A DNA stretch of 64,000 bases from Asterias amurensis. Its lineage: Eukaryota; Echinodermata; Asteroidea; Forcipulatida; Asteriidae. The position numbers and the translations under genes were made by a program. Below, one piece after another: positions 8,744-49,112 of the stretch. The stretch's first letter is position 1; every line of letters starts with the position of its first letter. The notes beneath the pieces were generated by a model that did not search any database, was not told the DNA's origin, and worked only from the letters and a program-made list of their open reading frames with translations. The DNA lies in NCBI RefSeq assembly GCF_032118995.1, contig NC_092661.1, positions 10,912,494 through 10,976,493 on the forward strand. Reading direction: 5' to 3'.

Positions 8744-9589
8744 ACATTACAGCCGTACTTAGACGGGCCGTTCAAAAGTAACGTGACAACAAACTTTACC
8801 CAAATGAAGCAAATTTAAAGTTTTAGCAGGGGTTCTTTTTTGTATTTAATCAGTCAAAAATAAAGGGGGCAAAATTTTCACGACTTCTCGGCTCGAAAGC
8901 TGACGATGTGCTGGGATTTTCAACTCTTTGTCAACACCATTACATCACACAGGCATGTTCCAGAGGTTTTTTTTTCTCATTTGAGATGACCAAGCTTGCC
9001 GCCAGTCAAGTGTTACAACATACCAAAAGAGGGTGCGATTCAGCAATTTAAAACTGAGTGTAGTACACTATCCAATATCCAGCACTAACATATTGAGCCT
9101 AGACTAGTATGTGTGTGCAAGTGGAATGTTGGTAGACTCACCTGTTCACTGTGGGTTTCTGCCTTAAGTTAACCTGTGCAGCACATCTTCAGTAGATCAT
9201 CCTTTCAGCTAACCATCTCATAATCTGGTGTTTCTACTCACTCATATTGCGTCATCCACTAGAGCTGCCGTCCTTGGTGTGTCTGATGCATGATGGCAGG
9301 CAGGCCAAACCCTTTCTCTCAGGGTAGTACGAGTTTCTTAAAACACTGTGCATGGGAAGTAAAAATCAGATTTTAGGATCCACAATTGAAATTGATGAAT
9401 GTAAAAAAATACTGAACCACACAAAGCTTGAAAAGTAAGCTTTGCATCATTTTCTCAAGGGGTGAGATTTTAAGTGAATTGGGAAGTGAACAAATAAGAG
9501 GGATAAAAAGACTGTTTCAAAAATTGAGATAGTGATTTACAAAATGAATCAGTTAACCATATCAAAGCGCTTCTGACATTATAACCCCT
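8744..9589. other. Mostly unique DNA; possible minus-strand exon debris
   Basis: No repeat family is recognised. On the minus strand 9276-9236 reads an open 13-codon stretch (DTPRTAALVDDAI) ending in TGA, preceded by a CAG acceptor-like site. At 9170-9140 there is a second small block with good AG and GTGAGT borders. Either could be a terminal or untranslated exon, but neither has recognisable protein similarity. Confidence 0.3.
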
Positions 9590-9745
9590 GGTCCCCTGGT
9601 CACTTGGCCATATTATTTCATTCCTTAAACCATCTCAGCTCCTTGGGGAGTATACAGCTGGTGCTGCGAGTTACCGAGCTCCAACCTAATCATTCACATA
9701 AACCATCTCTGCCCTCTCAGGTACCCATTTTACCGTCTCTACACT
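9590..9745 (-). mobile_element. SINE S-III fragment
   Basis: The block CTCTCAGGTACCCATTTTAC at 9714-9733 and the preceding CCTGGTCACTTGGCC recur at 16435-16690, where a fuller copy with a tRNA B-box is present. Only the distal part is kept here. Confidence 0.5.
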
Positions 9746-13500: not shown

Positions 13501-13646
13501 AAGAAGAAAACAGGGTAATGCTCTAGCACTAAAACCTAATACTCGTCGTCGGCTGTGGTGGTCCCTATAACTTTAAAAAGGTTACTTTGAGAGCCATTTA
13601 TAACAATCATTTGACAAAAAATTGTTTTCTGCACTTCATCACCACC

Positions 13647-14141
13647 ATGAAGTTCTACATGATTTTGATGATGTTGATGTTGCCGTCTTCAGGGCATGCA
13701 AAGTGTGTTTGTCCCAAAGGCTGGTCCGCCTACGGCAGGCACTGCTATCTTTACGTGTCCCAACGGGAATTATTCTACAATGCCGAAGCAATCTGTCTTA
13801 GCAAGAGCCTCAACGGTCGCGAATCCCACCTCGTTTCGGTACTAGATGATGGGGAATCGGATTTCATCGCGGAGTTAGCCGAGGGGACAGCGACCCATTT
13901 CTGGATAGGTCTTAAAGGCTACTATGCCTACCACTCGTGGCAATGGATCGACGGAGAACCATACTTGTTCACCAATTGGGGTGCAACCTTCCCATCCAGT
14001 TCATACTCATCTGATGAGAACTGTATTCTGATGTACCCAACTTTTCCTAATCGAAAGTGGTCTAATTATTTGTGTTCAAACACTCCGTATCCCTACGTGT
14101 GCAAGATGGTACAGCGATACCAATATCGACCAAGTGACTAA
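13647..14141 (+). CDS. Secreted C-type lectin, divergent calcium site (lectin 1)
   Basis: This encodes a 164-residue secreted protein with one C-type lectin domain. Residues 1-18 are a signal peptide ending SSGHA; I chose this ATG (ACCACCATGA context) over the one at 13587 because only it puts the hydrophobic stretch at the N-terminus. The domain has the long-form Cys pair (C22, C33), the WIGL core (86-89), C50 and C152, and C126 and C143, plus an extra Cys at 20. The usual sugar-binding calcium site is missing: there is no EPN or QPD, and WSN (138-140) replaces WND. Sugar binding, if any, is probably not of the classic Ca-dependent type. The gene is a single exon. The tail RYQYRPSD is shared with lectin 2, so the two are tandem paralogues 3.7 kb apart. 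In echinoderms such proteins act in coelomic fluid immunity or adhesion; the exact role is inference. Confidence 0.9.
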   Translation: MKFYMILMMLMLPSSGHAKCVCPKGWSAYGRHCYLYVSQRELFYNAEAICLSKSLNGRESHLVSVLDDGESDFIAELAEGTATHFWIGLKGYYAYHSWQWIDGEPYLFTNWGATFPSSSYSSDENCILMYPTFPNRKWSNYLCSNTPYPYVCKMVQRYQYRPSD

Positions 14142-17752: not shown

Positions 17753-17876
17753 GGCGAGTATGATGCAATTCTAACGTCTGTCGTGTCATGGAACTAAACT
17801 GATTTTTTGCAAAAAAAACACCACAACGAAACAAAAATTCTGATTACAGAAACCAAAGACTACTAGAGATAGAAGA

Positions 17877-18362
17877 ATGCATTTCCTCTTCGACTTCAAG
17901 TTGTTACTTCTACTAGCAGCTATCGTGCACTACGGGCACGCAGGCTGTCTCTGCCCGCTGGGATGGGATGCTCATAGACGGCATTGCTATCTGTACGTGG
18001 AACAACCAGAGACTTTCAACACCGCCGAGAGCAACTGCAACGCCCAGGCGCAAGGCGGCAGAGAGTCCCATGTCACCTCGGTACTGGACACGGACGAAGC
18101 TGCGTTCCTCGCTGGGTACATTCAGCACGGTAGTGCCTGGATCGGGTTAACTGACATCGCTATAGAAGGGAACTGGGTGTGGCAGGACGGGCAACCCACC
18201 GGATCCCAGGACTGGTGGTATCCCAACCAACCTGATAATGCAGCTGGTATCGAGGATTGTGTCCAAATGGGGGCTAATAGGGGTTGGAATGATTACCCTT
18301 GTCATTATAAGTTACCTTATATCTGCAAGATGCTTCAACGATACCAGTACCGACCTCACTGA
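17877..18362 (+). CDS. Secreted C-type lectin, predicted galactose type (lectin 2)
   Basis: This encodes a 161-residue secreted protein with a single C-type lectin domain. Residues 1-22 are a signal peptide (hydrophobic LLLLLAAIV, ending HYGHA). Cysteines C26 and C37 form the N-terminal pair of long-form domains; C54 and C150, and C128 and C142, are the two conserved disulphides; C24 is extra. WIGL is at 88-91. QPD at 118-120 and WND at 137-139 form the calcium site that in this family prefers galactose/GalNAc over mannose. The start is the only ATG giving a signal peptide. It is a single exon, with AATAAA at 18609-18614 as a likely polyadenylation signal. It is about 50 percent like lectin 1 by eye and shares the C-terminal RYQYRP, but keeps the binding site that lectin 1 lost. 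Confidence 0.92.
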   Translation: MHFLFDFKLLLLLAAIVHYGHAGCLCPLGWDAHRRHCYLYVEQPETFNTAESNCNAQAQGGRESHVTSVLDTDEAAFLAGYIQHGSAWIGLTDIAIEGNWVWQDGQPTGSQDWWYPNQPDNAAGIEDCVQMGANRGWNDYPCHYKLPYICKMLQRYQYRPH

Positions 18363-20960: not shown

Positions 20961-23900
20961 CGTAGCGTTGAGTCTATCCTTGACAGCAGCCCCCCATTTG
21001 GCAGGGTCAAAGTTGAAAGGTCATTTAGTCCAGAGTTATTCTCCTCTGGTGTTGAAGTCTTACACTGGTCAAGTTCTGTAGCCGCTGCAGCTGTAACCAC
21101 ACAAGGAAATAATGGCTTTAGGATACAAAAATCCCACCTACAATCCTGGCCAAAATGCTCAGGTCATGTAACAATAAACATACATTTCTTTTCAACGCAT
21201 CCAATCGGGGCCCAAATTCATAGAGATGCTTACAGGCACTGGACACAAGTGGTAATTACTCAAAATAACTGTAGCATAAAAACTTACCTTGTAACAAGCA
21301 ATGGGGAGCTGTTGATAGTAGGTGTATAAAACATTGTGAGAAAAAGCTCCCTCTGAAGTAATTTGGTTTTTGAGAAAGAAGTAATTTCCACTAAAATATT
21401 TGAATTTGGTTTTGAGACCTCAGAATTAGATTTTGAGGTCCCGAAATCAAGCATCTGAAAGCACACAACTTTGTGTGACAAGGGTGTTTTTTCTTCCATA
21501 AGTATCTCGCAACTTGGACAACCAATTCAGTTCAAATTTTCACAGGTTTTTTATTATGTGCATACATGTATGTTGAGATACAACAAGAGAAGACTGGTCT
21601 TAGACAATAACCAAAGGTGTCCAGTGTCTTTGAGCAGAAAATATTGCTGAACAATCGTCTGCTAAGCAGAAACAAGTAGGATACTAGGAAGAAACTATAA
21701 ATAAATAGTAAACTTGCGGGTACAACCATGTGTAATTCTCTTTTGTGAATGTGTGAGTGTTGGCTCTGAGAAGAGCCGGTTTGGTCTCGACCTTTCAAAC
21801 AGTATACTGAAGAGCCGGTTTGGTCTCGACCTTTCAAACAGTATACTGAAGAGCCGGTTTGGTCTCGACCTTTCAAACAGTATACTGAAGAGCCGGTTTG
21901 GTCTCGACCTTTCAAACAGTATACTGAAGAGCCGGTTTGGTCTTGACGTTTCAAACAGTATACTGAAGAGCCGGTTTGGTCTTGACGTTTCAAACAGTAT
22001 ACTGAAGAGCCGGTTTGGTCTTGACGTTTCAAACAGTATACTGAAGAGCCGGTTTGGTCTTGACGTTTTGAACAGTATACTCTGCTCGTCTTCAGGAGAA
22101 GGAAAATTACTACTGAAGGGCTGTAGTTTTTTAAGAAATGGGTAAAACAAGTCACAAAAATTATTTTAGCAAGTAAATTTCTTTTCGTGACATTGTTTTA
22201 CTCATTTCTCAAAAACTGCACCACCTTAGCAACTAATAATTTAAGGTACGCTTTCTACTATCATTATCTTCAAACGGTGTAAGTTTAATGTATATCTGCA
22301 GGCATTGTGTTTTGTGTTACAAAAAGTACCCCATTATCTTTTAATAGCTTTATGAAATTGGGCCATGGACTCACCATAATTCAACTTGACCTTCCGCAGC
22401 TTCAGCTGGTACTCGGACGACCTAGACAATGGAAGAAATGTGATGTCCGCAGCTCTGGATTGTTCACCGGTTAACAGAAGAAGATCCTTGGAGTTTGATA
22501 ATGTGCATAGACCAAGGGGTCTCTCGTGGTTCGATAAATTGAAATCCTGAAGAGAAAATAATAATAAAAGAATCACACATCTTTATCTGAGGAAAGTAAT
22601 GTTTTTGTCTTTAGGGATTGTATACGTTTGATAAATGGAACCCACTGTTTGTTTTGATCCTATGTAGTCTCAGATACCATAAAACTAACCTATAAAAATT
22701 TCATTTTAAAAGATGGTTGCGTTTTTTAGTTTTCGCCGAACATCCAGAGCGGTTATATCCATGAAGGAAGAATAATCCTGAATTGGAATACACAAGCTGA
22801 GAAGCGTTACTGTCCGTAAAGCTTCTCGGATTAAAATTTTATGAAATAAAAAGGGATCTCTTTTTCCATAACTACATATCTTCGAAGTGAAAAAGTAATT
22901 ACGATACATTGTCTGCCCGTGGTCAGCCATTTTGGGAATCAAAATGCATTTAAAGATGGTTTGCGTCTCACTACACATGCATCGCTTAAACTGCGCACTG
23001 CACAGCAACACTAAGGGAAACTATCACAACCAATATTTGAATTGTGTCAACAGATAATACTTACAAGTATTTGTCTTCCTCTTAGTTGTTTCCCCTGATC
23101 CACTGATGCCTGATATGATTTCGTCTGAGTGTTACTGCCGACAACAAGAACACCACTCATTCTCTATCAGATAAAAAAGAGAACACACTAGCTATCACAT
23201 CAATGCAAAAAGGGAGGTGTGTCGTGGCCGAGTTCACCAGACCCAAGCTCTGGGCCCAATTTCATAGAGCTGCTTAAGCACAAAATTTTGCTTAAGCGAA
23301 AAAATCCTTGCTTTGTAAAATCAGATTACCAGCCGAGACTCCACTCAATTGTTAAGCTAAGTAAACGACAGCTAAATACCAGACACAAGCATGTATATGG
23401 CATGACATTTTGACCAGTAACATGTGTAAAATAAGTGAGCTATTTTCGCTTAAGCAGCAAATTTTTTGCTTAAGCAGCTCTATGAAATTGGCCCCTGGTG
23501 TTGTCAGCAGCAGAGTGTGGTTTTAATACCCGGTCATGACCCTTGTGCCCGTAAGTAATAAGTTGGAAAGGTAGGGCATTCTGCTCTACCAACCAGGCTC
23601 CTAGTGGATGATACCCATGCCTACATATGTATCATCATTACAGACTGTGAAAAGGGTAACCCTGTTTCAGCCTCATGAGCAGGGCCCAATTTCATAGAGC
23701 TGCTAAGCACAACAATTTGCTCAGCATGAAATTTCCTCCTGGATAAAAACAGGATTACCAACAAAATTTCCATTTGTTGCATATTTCTTGTTACTGGTAT
23801 TCAGCTGTTGTTTGCTTATCCTGAAAATCACGTGGTAATTTGGTTGGTAATCCTGTTTTTATCAAGGAAGAAATTTCATGCTAAGCAAATTTTTGTGCTT

Positions 23901-26900
23901 AGCAGCTCTATGAAATTGGGCCCAGGTGGCAATGTGGTGACAGTTGATTTGACAGCCAATAAGTGTAGCCCTCACCTGACCGTAGGGCCTTGTGATGTTA
24001 GATATTCTCTCACAAAAAAAAACATTTTTCACAGTGCAAAAAGGTAATTTCTTAAAATAAAACTCATTCTTATTATCTGAAAAATAATCGTTGCAATTTC
24101 TTTGCTCTACCAATCCTTTCTAACACACTTAAACCAAGTTAATTTCTTACCTGATAAACTAGAAGGTCAGGATTAAGAATACAAGGCAGACTCAAGGAAG
24201 AGATGATGCTTTCTTCGGCGTCTTCAGAGATTAAATTTCTGTTTCTTCCGAGATGGACTAATACAAGTTGAGAGGATTCTGATATGGGCTCCTGGAATGG
24301 ACAAAAACAAACATTAATTTATTATGTTAACAGGTGTTTAAAGGCAGTGGACACTATTGGTAATTACTCAAAATAATTATTATCATAAAACCTTTCTTGA
24401 TTACGAGTAATGGGGAGAGGTTGATAGTGAGAAACGGCTCCCTCTGAAGTAACGTAGTTTTCGAGAAAGAAGTAATTTTTCACGAATTTGATTTCGAGCC
24501 CTCAGATTTAGAATTTGAGGTCTCAAAATCAAGCATCCGAAGCATTTTTCGTGCGACAGAGGCATTTGTTTCTTTCATTATTATCTCGCAACTTCGACGA
24601 TCGATTGAGCTCAAATTTTCACAGGTTTATTATTTTATGCGTATGTTGAGATACACCAACTGTGAAGACACAAGTAGTCTTTGACAATTACCAATAGTGT
24701 CCAGTGTCTTTAAACTATCTCAGGGCTGGAACAAAAAATAAACCACAAGGGAAACTTCTATTGTAGTTACCTGTTGCTTTTGTCTTAATTTCAACTCCGG
24801 CCTGGCTCCAAGTGCCATTGGATTCACTCTTAGGTTTGTTAGATCTATAGTCTCTGCTGCTTCAGGCTGATTGGCGAGGTCCACCTCACCGGACCTCCCA
24901 TCAGCCAATCTCAAATCACCATTCCTACTTGTCGCTTTGTCTCCAGCAGATCTCAAGTCTGATTCTTGCTCCTTGTAAGAATCTCCGCCTGACTTGGATG
25001 ACTCTTCTTGAGTCCGCAGGCAGTCTGAGTCTGACTTCTTATCAGATGTCTGGTTTCCGCCTCCTCTTCTGCGGAACAAAGCAGTGACATCAATGGGGCC
25101 AGATCGTTTCAGAATCTCTTTCGTGAGTGCACTATCTACACCACTGATAGTATCCACGCACTTCAGCTCACTTTGACCTTTCAACTCTGACCTGTTTTCC
25201 TCTGACCTGTTCGCCTCTGACCTGCTTTCAAGCAAGACATTTGATTGATGTTGACAATCCTCTGTTGTGCTTTGAATCATGAATTCTGCAAACGGCGTTG
25301 CTTCGAACATGTCCTCTTTGGATTGGTTCAACAAACGCGCCAATGGCAGGTCAAGGGTCACTGCTACAATGTCAGGTGTCACCGACACTATTTTCCTGAT
25401 TGGTCCGGAGAAACTGTGAAGAAAGACAGTTTGAAATATATGTTTTAAGAGGAGTTCTATTCAAAATCAACTGTAAGTCATACATTTAATTGTAGTATCT
25501 TTCAGAATAGCCCTAAATGTTAGTCCTAGATGGAATTTTGTTCTCAGATTACAAAATGAAATGAGGAATCTATAATTCCACACTCTTTGTATGAGAGCAC
25601 ATTGTTTTCATTGCCAGAAAGATGGAAACCAAAAACTTACAACAGTTTTGGGTTGAACAAAAACAAATTGACGAGAGTGGGACTTGAACCCAAGATCTCC
25701 GGATTAAAGTGCCGGCGCTCTACCAGCTAAGCTATCTAGCCCTAATATAGCTGGTCTCTCTATGTTGTCAATACTTTTGTTTGGGGGTGCCAGTCAGTAG
25801 TCATTTTGAGGAACAAATCGATTTATTACTCACTTCTGTATTGTTTTATCTACCACCAACTGATTGTTTCCATCTAACTCACACACCTATAGTTTGAGAA
25901 AAACAGAAAAACATTAATTAAAATACATATTGTGCAATTGCAGTTATTGATCCTAAACACTTCATCCTTACAATAAATTTGGGGTGTTTTTTGGCAACCA
26001 TGACCGGAAACAAGTTTTCGACGTAAAGTTCACTGGCTGAAACAATTTCCGAGAGCTACGCAAAAACGGGTCGGTAGCGCTAAACAGTTTATGATGTAGG
26101 TACATCTCTTGAAAATTTATGTTTCTTAAAATATACACCCTTCATTTTATTTTCAAGTGATGGAACTTAATTTACATTATTTAATTGTTATGCTCTGCTT
26201 ATCCTGTTAAAACACAGAAATATACCCCTAGGGATGAGAACTGAGTATTATAATTAGAATACAATGAATAAAATTGTCTAATTGAATCTGTGACCGTTTA
26301 AAGCTGACTTCATATGATCATGATAATAATTCACTCACAATAAGTTTTGATCCAAGAGCAACAATGACCTTTGACCCATCCAGGGACCATGTTCCTGCTG
26401 TGATTCTTTGATGTGTGTTTAAAGGTAGAGTCTTGACTGAATCTTTCTCTGGGTCGACTAATAGAAGCTGGTCCCTGCCTAGGATAACAAGAAGTGGTAT
26501 GGTGGGATGCCACATACAACCTGGATGTGAAATTAGAAGAATTTTTTTGGGGAGTTAATGAATTGCATCTTTGAGAGGGCAAGGCTATTTTTATTTTGCA
26601 AAGAGTACTTCCAATGAAAGTTTTGAAGTCTATGGAAAACTTTGGGAGGCCAAGTCGAGAATCAGAACAATCTGAAAATCTACAGGCTCGTAGCTAAAAA
26701 AGTTTACTGCACCAAAAATTGTTGTAGAACAGAATCGGGAAAGTACCAAGTATACAGTGCTAACACACATCGGTGTATGGGTAAAAACCAAAATTAATAT
26801 TCTTTATCCCCGATGCAAATTTAACATCTATTATATCGTTGCGGTACCCGCTGCCAAAACATAGGATTCGAACTGCCTCTAGCTGCTGGGCAACCTCGGT

Positions 26901-29835
26901 AGTCTAGTTGGTAAGACACTGCTCTAGAACTGCAAGGGTCGCGGGTTCGAATCCCACCCGAGTAACATGCCTGTGATATTTTTTTCACAGGACTCGGGAA
27001 AGTACTGAGTATACAGTGCTAACACACATTGGTGTATGGGTAAAAACCAAAATTAACAGAATCAAAACTCAAAATCAAGATATGTACACAATTTGTTTAT
27101 TGTTCAGATATTAAATGTTGAGGTATTGTTATTAAATTGAAAAAAAAAAACAAGAACGCCAGACTTGTCCGTTCATAAGTTTACTGGCCCGACACTACAA
27201 CCACTGGCCTTAGGCCTCCGGTCCAGTGTAAAGTTCAAACCCTGTAAATGACCCTGAATGTATTCAACCCCGTCAAGTGAAAGAGTGAAACAACATGATT
27301 GCATTTACATTACTTGTTGAATTTACTGATTACATTGAATAGATATGATATTTTGGCTCTAGGAAAAAAAGTAGTAATATTGTATTGAGTACAGGGGCTG
27401 ACTTAGATACACATGGTGTACGCATAAACATTTAATAAAAATTTCAACACAATGTTTTTAAGTTTTCACAGAAACTAGACTTTAGTAGGAAGGATATCAT
27501 GACTAATTGGAGCAGTGTTTTTCAGGCCCTCCAAAAAAATGGTTGAAGCTCTTATTTGCACATACCTTGGGGAATTGCTTCTTCATGAATTTCTTTCACT
27601 CTGCTGAGTTTCAGTTTCTGGGATTTGCTGGAAAGTAAAATGAGTATCTCTTTTTAGAAATTTGTTAAACATGTTTTTAATCAAACTGGTCATACAAGCT
27701 GCCATGGATGTCAACAATTGTCCAAAAAATAAGAAATGGATTTTCAGACAAATACTTGGACAATATAAAGTTGCATTCACTCAAATTCCAAATGTATAAA
27801 TATTCACAAATAATTCCAAATTAATTACCCAGTCGGGTCATCCCTTTGTTCTCGGGAACATTACTAGATTGTATCTCCACCATGCAAAGTTTCCACTCCT
27901 AGTTATACTTACTCAAGTTGCACTTTCCATAAAGTGATAGACCTTGTGTGTTGCACACTCAAAAAGCATTGAGTTGAGTCTCCACTCCATGCCACCTGCT
28001 CCACTGAGCTACGGAAACAGAAGAAGAAATTGTTGAGATGCATAGATTTGACAGGGGTATAATAATTACAACTTGTTCTTTATTATAAGAACTTATAACT
28101 AGTTCCTCTTGTGTATTGCAATTTGCATACATGTATGCAAGACAATTTTCCTCTACGGTGTAGGACCAATAAACTTAATTGCATTGAATTGAATATAAAG
28201 CGCATTTTACAATAACCATATCCATGCGCTTTACATTAGTGCCATGCCGTCAATTTCACCAAACTCTTCCTGACTTACTGGGCCAATAACATTCATTCTT
28301 TCTCAGCTCGGGTAGGAGTGCTGTTGTGTATGAGATCTGAGATGTACATGGGAGCAGCGTCGTGAAGTGCCTTTAAGGTGAGCAGAAGTATTTTGAACTG
28401 AATGCGTCTATCAATGGATAACCAGTGGAGTGAGGATAAGATGGGTGATATGTCTTCATTTCGACGGCGTGCTCTCTTGGTTATTCTTGCTTTTATGTTT
28501 TGTGTTCTTTGAAATAACAGCAACCAAGTGATCATAATGTCCACAAAACCTCTCAGATAATACCAAAGATTATATAGCGCCGCAAGGCCCAAGATGCGGA
28601 ACTCGGGCTGGAATGTGAAATCCCACTGGACGCCATTTCGGCAAGTAACTCTCTTGATACAACAATAGATCAGTGCAGATCAGTGCAGACAATGACCATT
28701 CCTATCAATGGGAAACAAAACATTCACTTGCTGAAATGGCGCCCATGCATATTTCACGTTCCAACAATAGATAAAGCTTCAGTTCCACATCTTGTGCCTT
28801 GCGGCGCTCTATAATCTTTGATAATACTCACTTGAATTGCCCCAGGGTAGTAGGTGGGCATGCTGTGATTCCATCTTGATTCACGGAGATACTAGACAGG
28901 TTTACATGTTCACCATCGGACCAGACTAAACCGTGAACTGGATGAACGGCTGCAGTGAGAAACAAAACAATATTGTTGTAAAGTTTAAACAAGATTAAGA
29001 TAACTTGGTTGTGGTTGTCTATTGTGTATTAAGTCAACTGCTGCAGCAATCTCTCTTTGAAAACACGAATCGAACACCAGTCAAAACTTTTTCCAAACGC
29101 CCAGCTGGCAAATTCATTGTTGCTTTAATTCATTTTTTATTTATAATCCCACTTGACACTGGGCTGGCAAAACAACTACAACACAAGTCAGTTAGATTTT
29201 TAGAAATACAATCCACAAAATATGTTTTTATGTACATTGTATGATTATGAATGAGAAAATAAAACTGTGACACAAATTGTCAAAATTTTACAAATTTCCA
29301 AGCCAGTGAGTGGCAAGGAGGAACAGGTGGCCAACAACCCCTTTTAGGGGAAAGTTTCCGTATGGCACCACCACTTTTTTATTCGAAATAAAATAATATA
29401 GTATCTAATTTACCTGATTGATATATCCCTTTTTGTAAAAATGAGTGAATATACGGAAATACGGAAATACGGAAAGCTACACCCCTTATGCTTATCATGC
29501 TTATCAATTACGAGTAGCCCCACTTGTGTGGCCAAGGATCAACAAGTGGGGCTAACTATGATGTCGATTTATTCACCTACATAATACAGGTTCTAGGATG
29601 TTTTCATTATCTGGCTTCACGTTGAACAATACTAATAAATAGTACATTGGAAACAACAGTACAGTGGCTCGACTAACTTATCATTACAACTACACTACAC
29701 GAGTTTGTTTAAATTATTAAAATTAGATGATCACACATCAACAATTAAATAACAACACAAAACACAGAAAGCATGCTTACCATTTTGTAAATGGTTGACA
29801 TTCGCTCGTCGCGACTTCCCTCTGCCTAGAAACAT
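20961..29835 (-). CDS. WDCP: WD repeat and coiled-coil-containing protein (11 exons; 3' end open)
   Basis: Eleven exons with AG/GT borders join in one frame (1751 nt, 583 codons): 29835-29781, 28949-28832, 28008-27913, 27627-27566, 26520-26339, 25886-25834, 25413-24771, 24291-24151, 23163-23065, 22546-22375, 21090-20961. The start MFLGRGKSRRANVNHL, then AVHPVHGLVWSDG, GCMWHP, VAVTLDLPLARLL, SGPIDVTALF, ERPLGLC and FLPLSRSSEYQL follow, in order, the vertebrate WDCP (C2orf44) sequence as I recall it. WD-type strands fill both halves, with an acidic, Ser/Glu-rich linker in exon 7 (short RSEENRSELK-like repeats). The vertebrate protein is cytoplasmic and binds the kinase HCK; that role here is inference. 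The C-terminal coiled-coil part is not secured: candidate continuations lie at 20270-20345 and at 10664-10734. Introns hold many repeats. Confidence 0.88.
21230..21633. mobile_element. Family A MITE (A5)
   Basis: It runs from TTACAGGCACTGGACACAAG to CAAAGGTGTCCAGTGTCTTT, about 400 bp, with the A interior. The TTAA ends are mutated. It abuts a family C end (GGGGCCCAAATTCATAGAGA) at 21207. It lies in WDCP intron 10. Confidence 0.75.
21770..22081. repeat. 39-bp tandem array, eight units
   Basis: Eight units of GAAGAGCCGGTTTGGTCTCG plus a 19-bp half ending CAGTATACT are almost identical. Units 1-4 have CTCGACCTTTC and units 5-8 have CTTGACGTTTC, so two blocks of four arose by duplication. Because 39 is a multiple of three, all three frames stay open on several strands, giving repeat-protein-like frames that are not genes. 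It sits inside WDCP intron 10. Confidence 0.95.
22106..22345. mobile_element. Family F MITE, right part (F3)
   Basis: It contains CTGTAGTTTTTTAAGAAATG, the inverse TTTCTCAAAAACTGCACCAC, GCTTTCTACTATCATTATCT, and TACAAAAAGTACCCCATTAT, as in F1. It lacks the first 80 bp and lies 30 bp from the WDCP exon 10 donor. Confidence 0.7.
22716..22900. repeat. Dispersed repeat V (V1)
   Basis: CCAGAGCGGTTATATCCATG, TAATCCTGAATTGGAATACA and CTTCGAAGTGAAA recur in the same order at 54771-54975. No ends are defined. It lies in WDCP intron 9. Confidence 0.65.
23252..23495. mobile_element. Family C element (C4)
   Basis: It starts GGGCCCAATTTCATAGAGCT and ends with the inverse AGCTCTATGAAATTGGCCCC. GCTTAAGCAC/GCTTAAGCAG arms pair. 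It lies in WDCP intron 8. Confidence 0.8.
23496..23573 (+). mobile_element. SINE S-III fragment beside C4
   Basis: CAGAGTGTGGTTTTAATACC and GGTCATGACCCTTGTGCCCG resemble the start of the S-III copy at 42060 (GTGGGTTCGAATCCCC, TGACACTTGTGTCC). The remainder is lost. Confidence 0.45.
23574..24008 (+). mobile_element. Family Y repeat (Y3), split by C5
   Basis: The left part (GGGCATTCTGCTCTACCAAC to CCTGTTTCAGCC) and the right part (GTGACAGTTGATTTGACAGC, GTAGCCCTCACCTGACCG) are contiguous in Y2. Here the 243-bp C5 separates them. Confidence 0.65.
23682..23924. mobile_element. Family C element (C5) nested in Y3
   Basis: This is a near-palindromic copy from GGGCCCAATTTCATAGAGCT to CTCTATGAAATTGGGCCC. 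CAGGATTACCAACAAAATTT faces GGTTGGTAATCCTG, and TCAGCATGAAATTT faces AAATTTCATGCTAAG. C6 at 46194 matches it in most parts. Confidence 0.85.
24338..24713. mobile_element. Family A MITE (A6)
   Basis: A complete 376-bp copy from TTTAAAGGCAGTGGACACTA to GTGTCCAGTGTCTTTAA, with TTAA at both ends. It sits in WDCP intron 7, 58 bp beyond the exon 7 donor. Confidence 0.85.
25647..25802 (-). mobile_element. tRNA-derived SINE S-II
   Basis: On the minus strand a tRNA-like head reads TAGCTTAGCTGGTAGAGCGC (A-box) and TTGGGTTCAAGTCCCACTCT (B-box), followed by CAATTTGTTTTTGTTCAACC. A full cloverleaf can be drawn for the head, but copies at 8412 and 49190 with the same flanks show it is a SINE rather than a tRNA gene. 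It lies in WDCP intron 6. Confidence 0.7.
26733..26840 (+). mobile_element. SINE S-I tail, truncated copy
   Basis: GGGAAAGTACCAAGTATACA, GTGTATGGGTAAAAACCAAA and CCCCGATGCAAATTTAAC repeat the distal part of the fuller copy that follows at once. The two are head-to-tail in WDCP intron 4. Confidence 0.7.
26843..27056 (+). mobile_element. tRNA-derived SINE S-I, fullest copy
   Basis: The head reads TAGTCTAGTTGGTAAGACAC (A-box) and GGGTCGCGGGTTCGAATCCC (B-box), with CTCGG/CCGAG as acceptor-like stem. Then follow CATGCCTGTGATATTTTTTT, the hairpin partner CACAGGACTCGGG, and ACCAAAATTAA. Related copies at 4988 and 34680 show it is a repeat. Confidence 0.8.
28061..28292 (-). other. Possible LINE 3' untranslated end
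   Basis: On the minus strand, after the reverse-transcriptase tail, the sequence runs through TTGTATACAC-free AT-rich DNA to ATTCAATGCAATTAAGTTTA-like text near 28150-28190, as at invertebrate LINE 3' ends. At 28250-28279 a fragment of family N (TTTCACCAAACTCTTCCT) is present. WDCP exon 3 follows at 28008. Confidence 0.4.
28293..28520 (-). mobile_element. LINE reverse transcriptase C-terminus fragment
   Basis: The minus frame reads ITKRARRRNEDISPILSSLH then WLSIDRRIQFKILLLTLKAL and HDAAPMYISDLIH. This is the typical end of CR1/L2/Jockey reverse transcriptases (LHWLPxxxRIxFKILLLTYKAL). The fragment lies in WDCP intron 2 in the same orientation as the gene. The N-terminal end of the frame enters a fold-back element and is not LINE. 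Confidence 0.85.
28557..28827. mobile_element. Fold-back element O1 at WDCP exon 2 splice donor
   Basis: AGATTATATAGCGCCGCAAG with CCAAGATGCGGAACT, and their inverse CACATCTTGTGCCTTGCGGC with GCTCTATAATCTTTG, form arms around ATTTCGGCAAGT/ACTTGCTGAAAT. The right arm ends within a few bases of the GTGAGT donor of exon 2 (28831-28826). Confidence 0.85.
29281..29760. other. WDCP intron 1, unassigned
   Basis: Unique-looking AT-rich intron sequence with a short CGGAAATA direct repeat at 29455-29475. No exon or recognisable repeat. Confidence 0.5.
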
Positions 29836-33228: not shown

Positions 33229-33862
33229 TACCACGAAAATCTCAAATAATATTCCTCTAGTTTTGTAATATATTTTGTTATGAAGTTATATCGGTATATT
33301 ATACCATGGCTAAAGGATAAAATAGTTGAGTCCACGTAATATTTCATAATGAAGTTAGCTATATCAGATATACCATGGCTCAAGGATGAAATATATAAGT
33401 CCACGTCTTCGTTACATTACAAAATCTCAAATAATATTCCTCTAGTTTCGTAATATTTCATATGAATTTGGTTATTTCGGTATACCACTCAACATTACGA
33501 AATTTCAAATTATACTTTTCTAGTTTCAAAATACTTCATCGTTATACCACTCATCATAATATCTGCAAAGTCCACGTCTTTGTTCCCTTACGAAATTTCA
33601 AATAATATTCCTCTAGTTTCGTAATATTTCATATGAATTTGGTTATTTCGGTATACCACTCAACATTACGAAATTTCAAATTATACTTTTCTAGTTTCAA
33701 AATACTTCATCGTTATACCACTCATCATAATATCTGCAAAGTCCACGTCTTTGTTCCCTTACGAAATTTCAAATAATATTCCTCTAGTTTCGTAATATTT
33801 CATCGGTATACACCACTCATTGATAACATGTTTGCAAAGTCCACGTCTATGTAACATAACAA
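33229..33862. repeat. AT-rich tandem array (171-bp period, smaller sub-units)
   Basis: AATAATATTCCTCTAGTTTC, GTAATATTTCAT, CGGTATACCACTCA and GCAAAGTCCACGTCT recur five or more times. The copies at 33459 and 33630 (CATATGAATTTGGTTATTTC) are 171 bp apart and nearly identical over their whole length. Outer units are more diverged. TTACGAAATTT and CTAGTTTCGTAA give short dyads in each unit. Confidence 0.85.
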
Positions 33863-46067: not shown

Positions 46068-46462
46068 GCATGTATGCTTCGGTTTTGAGAGGGCAAAGGG
46101 CACCAAGGTACTTTGTCCTTAATTAAAGGGCCCCCTATAGGAGGAAATGCAAATGTTTACTGGAGCGTTTCAAGGGCACCACGGCAATGACCAGGGGCCA
46201 ATTTCTTAGAGCTGCTAAGCACAAAAATCTGCTTAGCATGACATTTTTTGCCTTGATAAAAAAAGAATTACCAACCAAATTTTCACGTGATTTTCAGGAT
46301 AAGCAAACAACAGCTTGTAACAAGCAATATGCAACAAATGACAATTTGGTTGGTTATCCTGTTTTTATCAAGGAAGAAATTTTTGTGCTAAGCAGCGCCA
46401 TGAAATTGGGCCCAGGGGCATGGAGGCGCCTTTGTTGCCTCCGTCAAATATCAGGCATGCAT
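46068..46462. mobile_element. Family U repeat (U1), split by C6
   Basis: GCATGTATGCTTCGGTTTTG, AGAGGGCAAAGGGCACCAAG and CGTTTCAAGGGCACCACGGC lie left of C6. GGCATGGAGGCGCCTTTGTT and GCCTCCGTCAAATATCAGGC lie right of it. Uninterrupted relatives are at 52222-52396 (inverted) and 61214-61395. Confidence 0.7.
46194..46414. mobile_element. Family C element (C6)
   Basis: It runs from GGGGCCAATTTCTTAGAGCT to AGCGCCATGAAATTGGGCCC, with TTACCAACCAAATTTTCACG and GACAATTTGGTTGGTTATCC as inner arms. It is nested in U1. Confidence 0.85.
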
Positions 46463-46982
46463 TGTCAAGTTTTTCCAGAGGTTATTGCAATTTCACCTCT
46501 ATTCTAAAATAAGGAAACGCCCAAACATTGGTTTGAAATTATCAAAAATAAAAGAAAGGACCTATAATATTAATTAAAGAATATGGTTATAGATTAATTT
46601 CTATGGCAGAATCCAACAGATTTTCAGAAAACAAACCGCTTAGATTACACCTCAGGCGCTACCGGTGTCTTTTGTATCGTTCTTCTAATGTTGTAAGGGC
46701 ACCCTGGTAGTTGAATGACCTTAATATTTCTCTACCTCCACGATATTTACGTCTGATCCACCCATCCACCTTATTAATTTAGTCAGTCAAAAATGCTGAC
46801 CAATCGAAACGGTATGAATAGGCTACCCATTGCAGTTTGATTTACCTCTTACACGCGACTATGACATGAAACGGATAAATAAAAAACATATATAACAAAA
46901 TCCACCGTAGGGTAATCAAGGCGCACGAGAGGGAATCCTCAGTTCCTCACACAGTAAAGAAAGAGGGAAATCAGACAAATAT
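46463..46982. other. No gene seen
   Basis: AT-rich unique DNA with no supported exon or repeat. Confidence 0.5.
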
Positions 46983-47181
46983 GGCTTATCTATTAGACCT
47001 TATGCACCTTATGACGTCATCCAGCTGCCATCTTAGAGGAAAACCGGTGACGAAATAATCGAGACGCGCAGATTTGTACGCGCGGCGCACAGTATTGGCC
47101 AATGAACAACCTCCTCTTGACCTCTAGGTGAGGGCGCCCTACTGAAATGACGTCATGTGCATAAGGTCTAATAGATAAGCC
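46983..47181. mobile_element. Fold-back element S1
   Basis: GGCTTATCTATTAGACCTTA with TGCACCTTATGACGTCAT and the inverse ATGACGTCATGTGCATAAGG with TCTAATAGATAAGCC give 38-bp arms. Both arms carry TGACGTCA. A single copy is seen. Confidence 0.9.
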
Positions 47182-47274
47182 ACAGTTTGGTTTTCAAACT
47201 AATCTTTAAAGTACCTGCACACAGAAACATTACGAATTTGAAGTTGTAAGTCATTCCAGAGTGGGTCCCGCCCC

Positions 47275-47502
47275 ACTCACTAAATGCAAAAGGGTGAAAA
47301 ACAGTCTTTGAAGATAATGAGGGACAACTCTTTTTCGAGTAGTCTTCCACTCTTTTAGATTGAAGTTTGCATCTTTTTGCGTCCTGTGGTGAAACCCCTC
47401 CAGAAGAGTGAAATAACCACCAATCTTTTTAAAGAGCCATATGAGGGACAACTCGAAATGTAAAGAGTGGTGTTTTTCACTCTTTTACATTTAGAGAGAT
47501 GG
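47275..47502. mobile_element. Family M inverted-repeat element (M2), inverted
   Basis: CACTAAATGCAAAAGGGTGA at the left and CTCTTTTACATTTAGAGAG at the right are the ends. The interior is the inverse of M1 (TTGAAGTTTGCATCTTTTTG, GAGGGACAACTCGAAATG). Confidence 0.75.
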
Positions 47503-47655
47503 TAACAAGCAAGTATAAGATCGAAGAGACCTAAAAAGTGGGGCGTTCCCGCTGCCGTTGCCAAGTTTCCAACGTACCAAATCTGTGCACAGAACACCAT
47601 TTCTCCATCAACATAAAAGGAAGCGTTATTGCCGTCACATGATTTAAAAAGGTAT

Positions 47656-48095
47656 CTTATCGTGTACGTACAGTATGATTCCAAACTTCCAAACATATCA
47701 TGTACGTACACAATAAGTTGGACAATCAGTTATCGTGTGTGAGACGATAAGTGACCGTGTACGTAAATGATAAGCTATCGTGTACGCATACGATAACTTT
47801 GACTTATCGTGTACGTACATGATCAGTAAACGAAAACTAACTTTAACTTATAGTGTACGTACACGTATCTGATGTTTGAATTCAAGTTCTCTTGTACGTA
47901 AACAGTTTGGACTTATCGTGTACGTACACAATCAGTTATTTTGACTCATTGTGTACGCACATGATAAGTTTAAATTTAAGCTTCGAACGATCATTTATCT
48001 TGTACGTAAAACGATACCTTCGAATAAAATGTTGACTTGTCGTGGTGTACGTACACGATAAATTTTTACTTAACTTGTACGTACACGATAAGTTT
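47656..48095. repeat. Cluster of 13 near-palindromes around GTACGTAC
   Basis: Thirteen copies of a dyad with the ideal form TTATCGTGTACGTACACGAT plus AA occur in 440 bp. Centres lie near 47668, 47706, 47740, 47763, 47786, 47813, 47858, 47896, 47923, 47956, 48005, 48051 and 48083. Most keep TGTACGTA; the flanks ACTTATC and GATAAGT are kept more loosely. Spacing varies from 23 to 49 bp and the linkers are largely unrelated, unlike a plain satellite. No gene or ends are visible. Function is unknown. Confidence 0.9.
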
Positions 48096-48840: not shown

Positions 48841-49112
48841 CTCTCATTCATAAATACCTAAGACAGTTTATCCATTCTGATTGGTCGAGAGGGCATCAAC
48901 GTGGGGAAGTTTGAACGGATTATATTACAACAGTAAAAAGTGTTGAAACATGGGCGTGACACGTGAGCTTGCACCTGTGCTTATATTATAAGACAGTTTC
49001 TTCATTCCTATTGGTCGAGAGCAACGGCTGGGACAGTTTCTTCATTCCTATTGGTCGAGAGCAACGGCCGGGACAGTTGTGCCACATCACGCAATACGCG
49101 CGACGCGTACAA
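48841..49112 (-). repeat. Dispersed repeat R with CCAAT motifs (R2)
   Basis: This is the inverse of R1, with a 44-bp duplication (GACAGTTTCTTCATTCCTAT, TGGTCGAGAGCAACGGC) at about 48990-49076. On the minus strand it gives three CTCTCGACCAAT boxes, two in the duplication and one near 48885. Confidence 0.8.

Follow-up and report, generated by a model that had tools for sequence, protein, structure and literature searches.

A 440-bp array of worn dyads with well-kept TGTACG centres in the starfish Asterias amurensis: a possible homotypic cluster of binding sites

A compact array of 13 related units lies at positions 47655-48093 of the Asterias amurensis DNA analysed here, a 64,000-nucleotide stretch of contig NC_092661.1 (hereafter the window). 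Twelve of the units are centred on TGTACG and one has lost its centre (Table 1), and together they span 440 bases of seemingly non-coding DNA. Their centres are cleaner than neutral decay predicts. This signal is consistent in direction and rests on one array in one genome; its centre-blind version is fragile. The reading that we put forward from the sequence, at somewhat less than an even chance, is that an old tandem repeat of ~29 bp may have been maintained as a homotypic cluster of putative sites for a CpG-contacting factor.

Table 1. The array and its units, with positions in the window and the scans that recovered each unit
Feature	Position	Strand	Centre and peculiarities	Recovered by
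Whole array, 13 units	47655..48093	.	Highest CpG observed/expected among 440-bp stretches sampled each 20 bp	
Unit 1	47655..47680	+	TGTACGTACA	Centre-blind scan and whole-unit detector
Unit 2	47693..47718	+	TGTACGTACA	Centre-blind scan and whole-unit detector
Unit 3	47728..47752	+	Centre replaced by TGTGTGAGA; arms best kept (15/16)	Centre-blind scan; missed by ungapped whole-unit detector
Unit 4	47750..47775	+	TGTACGTAAA	Centre-blind scan and whole-unit detector
Unit 5	47773..47798	+	TGTACGCATA	Centre-blind scan and whole-unit detector
Unit 6	47802..47827	+	TGTACGTACA; 29 bp from unit 5	Centre-blind scan and whole-unit detector
Unit 7	47846..47872	+	TGTACGTACA; poor right arm	Whole-unit detector; centre-blind score at background
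Unit 8	47885..47910	+	TGTACGTAAA; both arms poor	Whole-unit detector; centre-blind score at background
Unit 9	47911..47936	+	TGTACGTACA	Centre-blind scan and whole-unit detector
Unit 10	47944..47969	+	TGTACGCACA	Centre-blind scan and whole-unit detector
Unit 11	47993..48019	+	TGTACGTAAA; insertion of 1 bp	Centre-blind scan and whole-unit detector
Unit 12	48035..48063	+	TGTACGTACA; 3-bp insertion separating left arm and centre	Centre-blind scan and whole-unit detector
Unit 13	48068..48093	+	TGTACGTACA	Centre-blind scan and whole-unit detector

The units were recovered by two scans. The whole-unit detector, in which the centre is not singled out, found 12 of them and missed the gapped lost-centre unit; its false matches number 27 in the 63.5 kb outside, or ~0.2 per array length. 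With the centre-blind scan, 11 array units score at least 11, the lost-centre unit being one of them, against a mean of 0.22 (maximum 1) in 114 same-sized pieces elsewhere, and most units are thus no artefact of a search for the core. Units 7 and 8 obtain centre-blind scores of 9 and 8, which lie within background, and are recognised via their centres. Matches to TGTACGTACA with at most one mismatch number 12 in the window, 11 of them within 47663-48085 and one outside the array; 1.85 are expected from shuffles, and 12 was reached in 0 of 100. A 22-bp dyad, allowing up to seven mismatches, likewise gives 12 sites inside the array versus one outside, and no second cluster of the motif comparable to this one is present in the rest of the 64-kb window. 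All TGTACG copies share a single orientation and start at 47663, 47701, 47758, 47781, 47810, 47854, 47893, 47919, 47952, 48001, 48046 and 48076. The first-pass annotation, made from the letters alone, had described the centre as largely intact. This is true of TGTACG, kept in 12 of the 13 units, and of the left half of the centre, intact in the same 12, but the right half differs in five of them (TAAA three times, CATA and CACA once each). Taken alone, the side bias of these five changes has p ~0.06; a protein reading the sites might favour TGTACGTA(C/A)A in a single direction.

The majority consensus of the units, ACTTATCGTGTACGTACACGATAAGT, is a perfect dyad of 26 bp, as had been claimed for the ideal unit. 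No single copy attains it: pairing across the 13 units ranges from 1 to 8 of 10 half-positions, five units stand at 8, and no array position or unit pairs at 9 or more, so that perfect symmetry is a property of the consensus only. The 13 near-palindromes counted earlier in 440 bp are indeed there, as 12 TGTACG units and one without its centre, but as worn copies. Near-palindromes are all the same enriched, with six array positions pairing at 8 or more of 10 half-positions (five of the six are unit centres) versus 0.50 expected from the outside rate. This enrichment agrees with the suggestion of a hairpin-prone locus, in which the dyads would extrude as DNA or fold as RNA, as do the strand fold (-86.6 versus -51.6 kcal/mol for shuffles, better than 100 of 100 shuffles, z -9.5) and unit 3, where both arms are kept and the centre is lost. 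Such a fold is, however, expected of any array of one palindrome, because any two copies can pair. The check proposed for co-variation of the arms gave a negative answer: in 12 units, pairing is at or below the independent-column expectation at 14 of 15 axis distances, and compensated cells number only four, two of which fall at the outermost, non-conserved position. Since arm changes are uncompensated, a hairpin function is unsupported, and we regard a hairpin or cruciform locus as very improbable.

The spacing of 23-49 bp reported in the first-pass annotation holds among TGTACG units except for one 57-bp step, which contains the thirteenth unit; with all 13 units the range is 22-49 bp. Gaps between successive units are 12, 9, -3, -3, 3, 18, 12, 0, 7, 23, 15 and 4. 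The linkers, -3 to 23 bp long, had been called mostly unrelated, which holds only in part: some keep TTG/TTTG-like remnants, and the short ones include TTG, TTTT and TATTTTG. From these remnants and the 29-bp spacing of units 5 and 6 we infer an ancestral tandem unit of 26 + 3 bp, and the array probably originated as a ~29-bp tandem repeat, now eroded. No fixed period is left in spacings of 22-49 bp, and TRF reports only two small pieces at the array, with periods 23 and 30. As a description of the array today, the judgement that it is no ordinary satellite is correct, but it misses the probable tandem origin. Adjacent units have an identity of 0.66 versus 0.68 for other pairs (12 units); since neighbours are no more alike than other pairs, the likeness of the centres cannot be put down to recent local or block duplication. 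Other tandem repeats occur in the window: a clean 39-bp array of eight copies (98%) at 21770-22081, open in several frames, and at 48862-49071 a 40-bp repeat beginning GACAGTTTCTTCATTCCTATTGGTCGAGAG, of which two tandem copies are nearly identical and a third has diverged.

Conservation differs markedly between centre and arms. In the 12 units of the whole-unit detector, mismatches affect 6/120 centre positions versus 55/192 arm positions, and the four centre columns outside TGTACG also differ less than the arms (6/48 versus 55/192, p=0.014). Neutral decay was simulated on a star phylogeny under 16 settings (four substitution rates, with or without faster CpG decay and with or without indels), 1206-1500 of 1500 runs being kept per setting after runs with fewer than six units were dropped. 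The centre-arm contrast has P 0 to 0.0020 under these settings, and TGTACG in all units P 0. When units were related by trees (4000 runs each, kept where total divergence matched), the observed centre was reached in 0/722, 0/991, 0/1192 and 0/1230 kept runs, and none of these runs had any 10-bp block as clean. With all 13 units the counts are 11/130 for centres versus 47/208 for arms (p=0.0004, rising to 0.002 if the centre is charged with the two insertions). The 11 centre-blind units, among them the one with the lost centre, give 10/110 versus 32/176, with p=0.024 when the bases inserted in units 11 and 12 are omitted, and 9 of the 11 units lie in the expected direction. Charging those inserted bases to the centre gives p=0.066 if they count as two events and 0.145 if each base counts, charging them to the arms gives p=0.013, and a sign-flip test at the unit level gives p=0.077. 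The centre-blind set is conservative, because a choice based on arms works against worn arms.

The CpG content of the array points to the same part of the unit. Its observed/expected ratio of 2.07 tops the scan of the window, with a runner-up of 1.93 near 33381; over 47656-48095 the ratio is 2.15 versus 0.75 in the rest. In absolute number the array holds 29 CpGs, where other stretches have up to 39. The consensus unit bears three CpGs at 6-bp steps. Among the 11 centre-blind units the central CpG is kept in 10/11, versus 12/22 for the arm CpGs (p=0.040), and 7 of the 10 missing arm CpGs are now TG or CA, the products that deamination would give. That the central CpG is retained more often than the others is consistent with binding at the centre.

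Two further explanations have to be weighed against a retained cluster of sites. The array could be a plain decayed minisatellite, in which an old ~29-bp tandem array eroded neutrally and the apparent conservation of centres combines chance, mutation-rate differences and the picking of units by eye. The tandem origin suggested by the 29-bp spacing and the TTG/TTTG-like linkers speaks for it, as do the further tandem arrays in the window, the near-perfect arms of a unit devoid of its centre, and the centre-blind tests that lose significance at the unit level or with centre-charged insertions. Against it, neutral simulations rarely or never match the contrast (P at most 0.0020 on the star, no kept tree run), and the central CpG outlasts arm CpGs lying only 6 bp off within the same units. 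Decay is moreover not uniform along the unit, a result that is weaker in the centre-blind tests. If the old linker is taken as 3 bp, length has changed in 11/12 linkers versus 4/13 units, a contrast that is partly circular because a unit with a large internal insertion would escape notice. The copies share with degenerate minisatellites their common orientation, one 29-bp spacing and linker remnants, and differ from them in the absence of a fixed period now and in a centre cleaner than neutral decay predicts. On balance we hold a plain decayed minisatellite to be unlikely, if the most serious of the rivals.

Subterminal motif arrays are known from several transposon families, and the array might consist of repeats from the interior or the subterminal regions of a non-autonomous DNA transposon, the centres being transposase-binding sites under selection in the element family. 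Three consecutive MITE-like inverted-repeat elements of ~210-226 bp lie within 1.5 kb upstream of the array (46191-46416, 46977-47187 and 47276-47498) and lend this view some support. No terminal inverted repeat brackets the array itself, however: the best arms in the 463 bp preceding and the 600 bp following it are no better than those of any of 83 dummy loci, and no transposase domain is found in six frames of 32-62 kb. The array may still belong to a larger element. A transposon origin is in our estimation less probable still than neutral decay of a minisatellite. The same six-frame search yields no Pfam domain of any kind at E 0.01, with the qualification that intron-split domains could be missed; outside 32-62 kb single ORFs only were covered. 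Ten of the 28 listed whole-window ORFs were scanned for domains, with two C-type lectins found in small ORFs of the + strand (13533-14141 and 17844-18362), and the nearest domain found is the C-type lectin at 17.8 kb. At Rfam gathering thresholds the window contains two tRNA genes alone, at 25669-25741 (-) and 26893-26965 (+), more than 20 kb away from the array.

Homotypic clusters of transcription factor sites in animal enhancers contain many variable copies of a short motif within a few hundred bp, with flexible spacing and a core better kept than its flanks. The starfish array resembles them in its variable copies of a short motif, its flexible spacing and its better-kept core, and differs in its apparent descent from a tandem repeat whose consensus is a 26-bp dyad. 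The motif recurs within the array more often than chance allows, and the core is conserved above the flanks, the latter more weakly and in a fragile manner in the centre-blind tests. Of the readings offered in the first-pass annotation, a cluster of dimer binding sites is the one best supported, since the centres are kept beyond neutral expectation; the centre-blind tests back it less strongly. Two observations fit it less well: the unit with the best arms, unit 3, has lost its centre, and the five variant centres change in the right half only, a pattern less in keeping with a symmetric dimer. Helical phasing is weak: of the 11 periods tried, 10.6 bp gives the best R, 0.52, uncorrected.

As for the protein that might read these sites, the array motif presumably resembles the JASPAR Gmeb1 matrix, and a GMEB-like SAND protein can be named as no more than a candidate, on motif likeness. 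For GMEB1/2 (SAND/KDWK), a half-site spacing range of 4-11 nt is given in passages of PMC4274154. The ACGT core is present in 10/13 array units and the CpGs of the consensus unit are 4 nt apart, inside the range in those passages (PMC4274154). The array contains 11 ACGT, one at the centre of each of 10 of the 13 units and one at 47863, and the pair formed by 47857 and 47863 in unit 7, 4 nt apart, is the only case of two half-sites at the spacing in these passages (PMC4274154). In the other 12 units the flanking CpGs are TCGT/ACGA or worn. Because unit 7 alone holds two ACGT half-sites, the array as a whole does not qualify as a set of GMEB sites. A GMEB motif like TGTACGTA is absent from the main text of PMC13145115, which mentions GMEB1 and TACGTA, and from the passages of PMC4274154. 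The listed literature on GTACGTAC palindromes, TGTACGTA motifs, GTGTACGTACA, GMEB/SAND, sea star satellites and homotypic clusters, taken as titles and abstract beginnings with passages of PMC13145115, PMC4274154 and PMC8557881, contains no description of such an element.

Similar dyads occur in prokaryotic viruses. Exact matches to the 16-mer TCGTGTACGTACACGA are found at four loci in viral contigs, to a 19-letter pattern at two, and to an 18-mer at two in prokaryote genomes. As fetched, these eight loci hold at most two exact TGTACGTA dyads close together, so that none looks related to the 13-unit array. Three CGTGTACGTACACG-like dyads are present in each of two viral contigs (L002, 9336-9409; L003, 544-617). 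They lie 25 and 34 bp apart and just upstream of a small gene, in the manner of phage repressor operator arrays, and probably form a cluster of repressor operators. The small gene of L002 is a 64-aa ORF (9425-9619) that weakly matches a family of Arc-like repressors (E 0.026); a separate Pfam match falls below its cut-off and is regarded as chance. These arrays differ from that of the starfish in belonging to prokaryotic viruses and in having few copies and near-perfect dyads, and the likeness is presumably convergent.

On the retained-cluster reading, the linkers and arms of an old ~29-bp tandem repeat, made up of a 26-bp dyad and a ~3-bp linker, would have drifted, and the repeat would have been maintained as binding sites in a homotypic cluster. 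A protein would contact the TGTACGTA(C/A)A centre, probably assembling around ACGT and its CpG as a dimer or oligomer, and selection would act against loss of the centre. The spaced copies may act jointly as an enhancer, a silencer or a local unmethylated platform, and the number of sites would count for more than their exact spacing. The leading candidate for the reader would be a SAND-domain factor like GMEB, sensitive to methylation and with ACGT half-sites. A bolder version, which we rate as a long shot, is that tandem repetition multiplied an ACGT dyad bearing a CpG, which formed a dense platform for a methylation-sensitive oligomeric reader, with free spacing and selected centres, and that such platforms (enhancer, boundary or replication origin) would make up an undescribed class of animal regulatory element.

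Should the retained-cluster reading be true, a minisatellite would here be seen turning into a cluster of regulatory sites. The three CpGs of each unit, 6 bp apart and with the central one best kept, would then provide an internal control helping to separate selection from mutation, and a defined sequence would be in hand for finding the protein that reads it.
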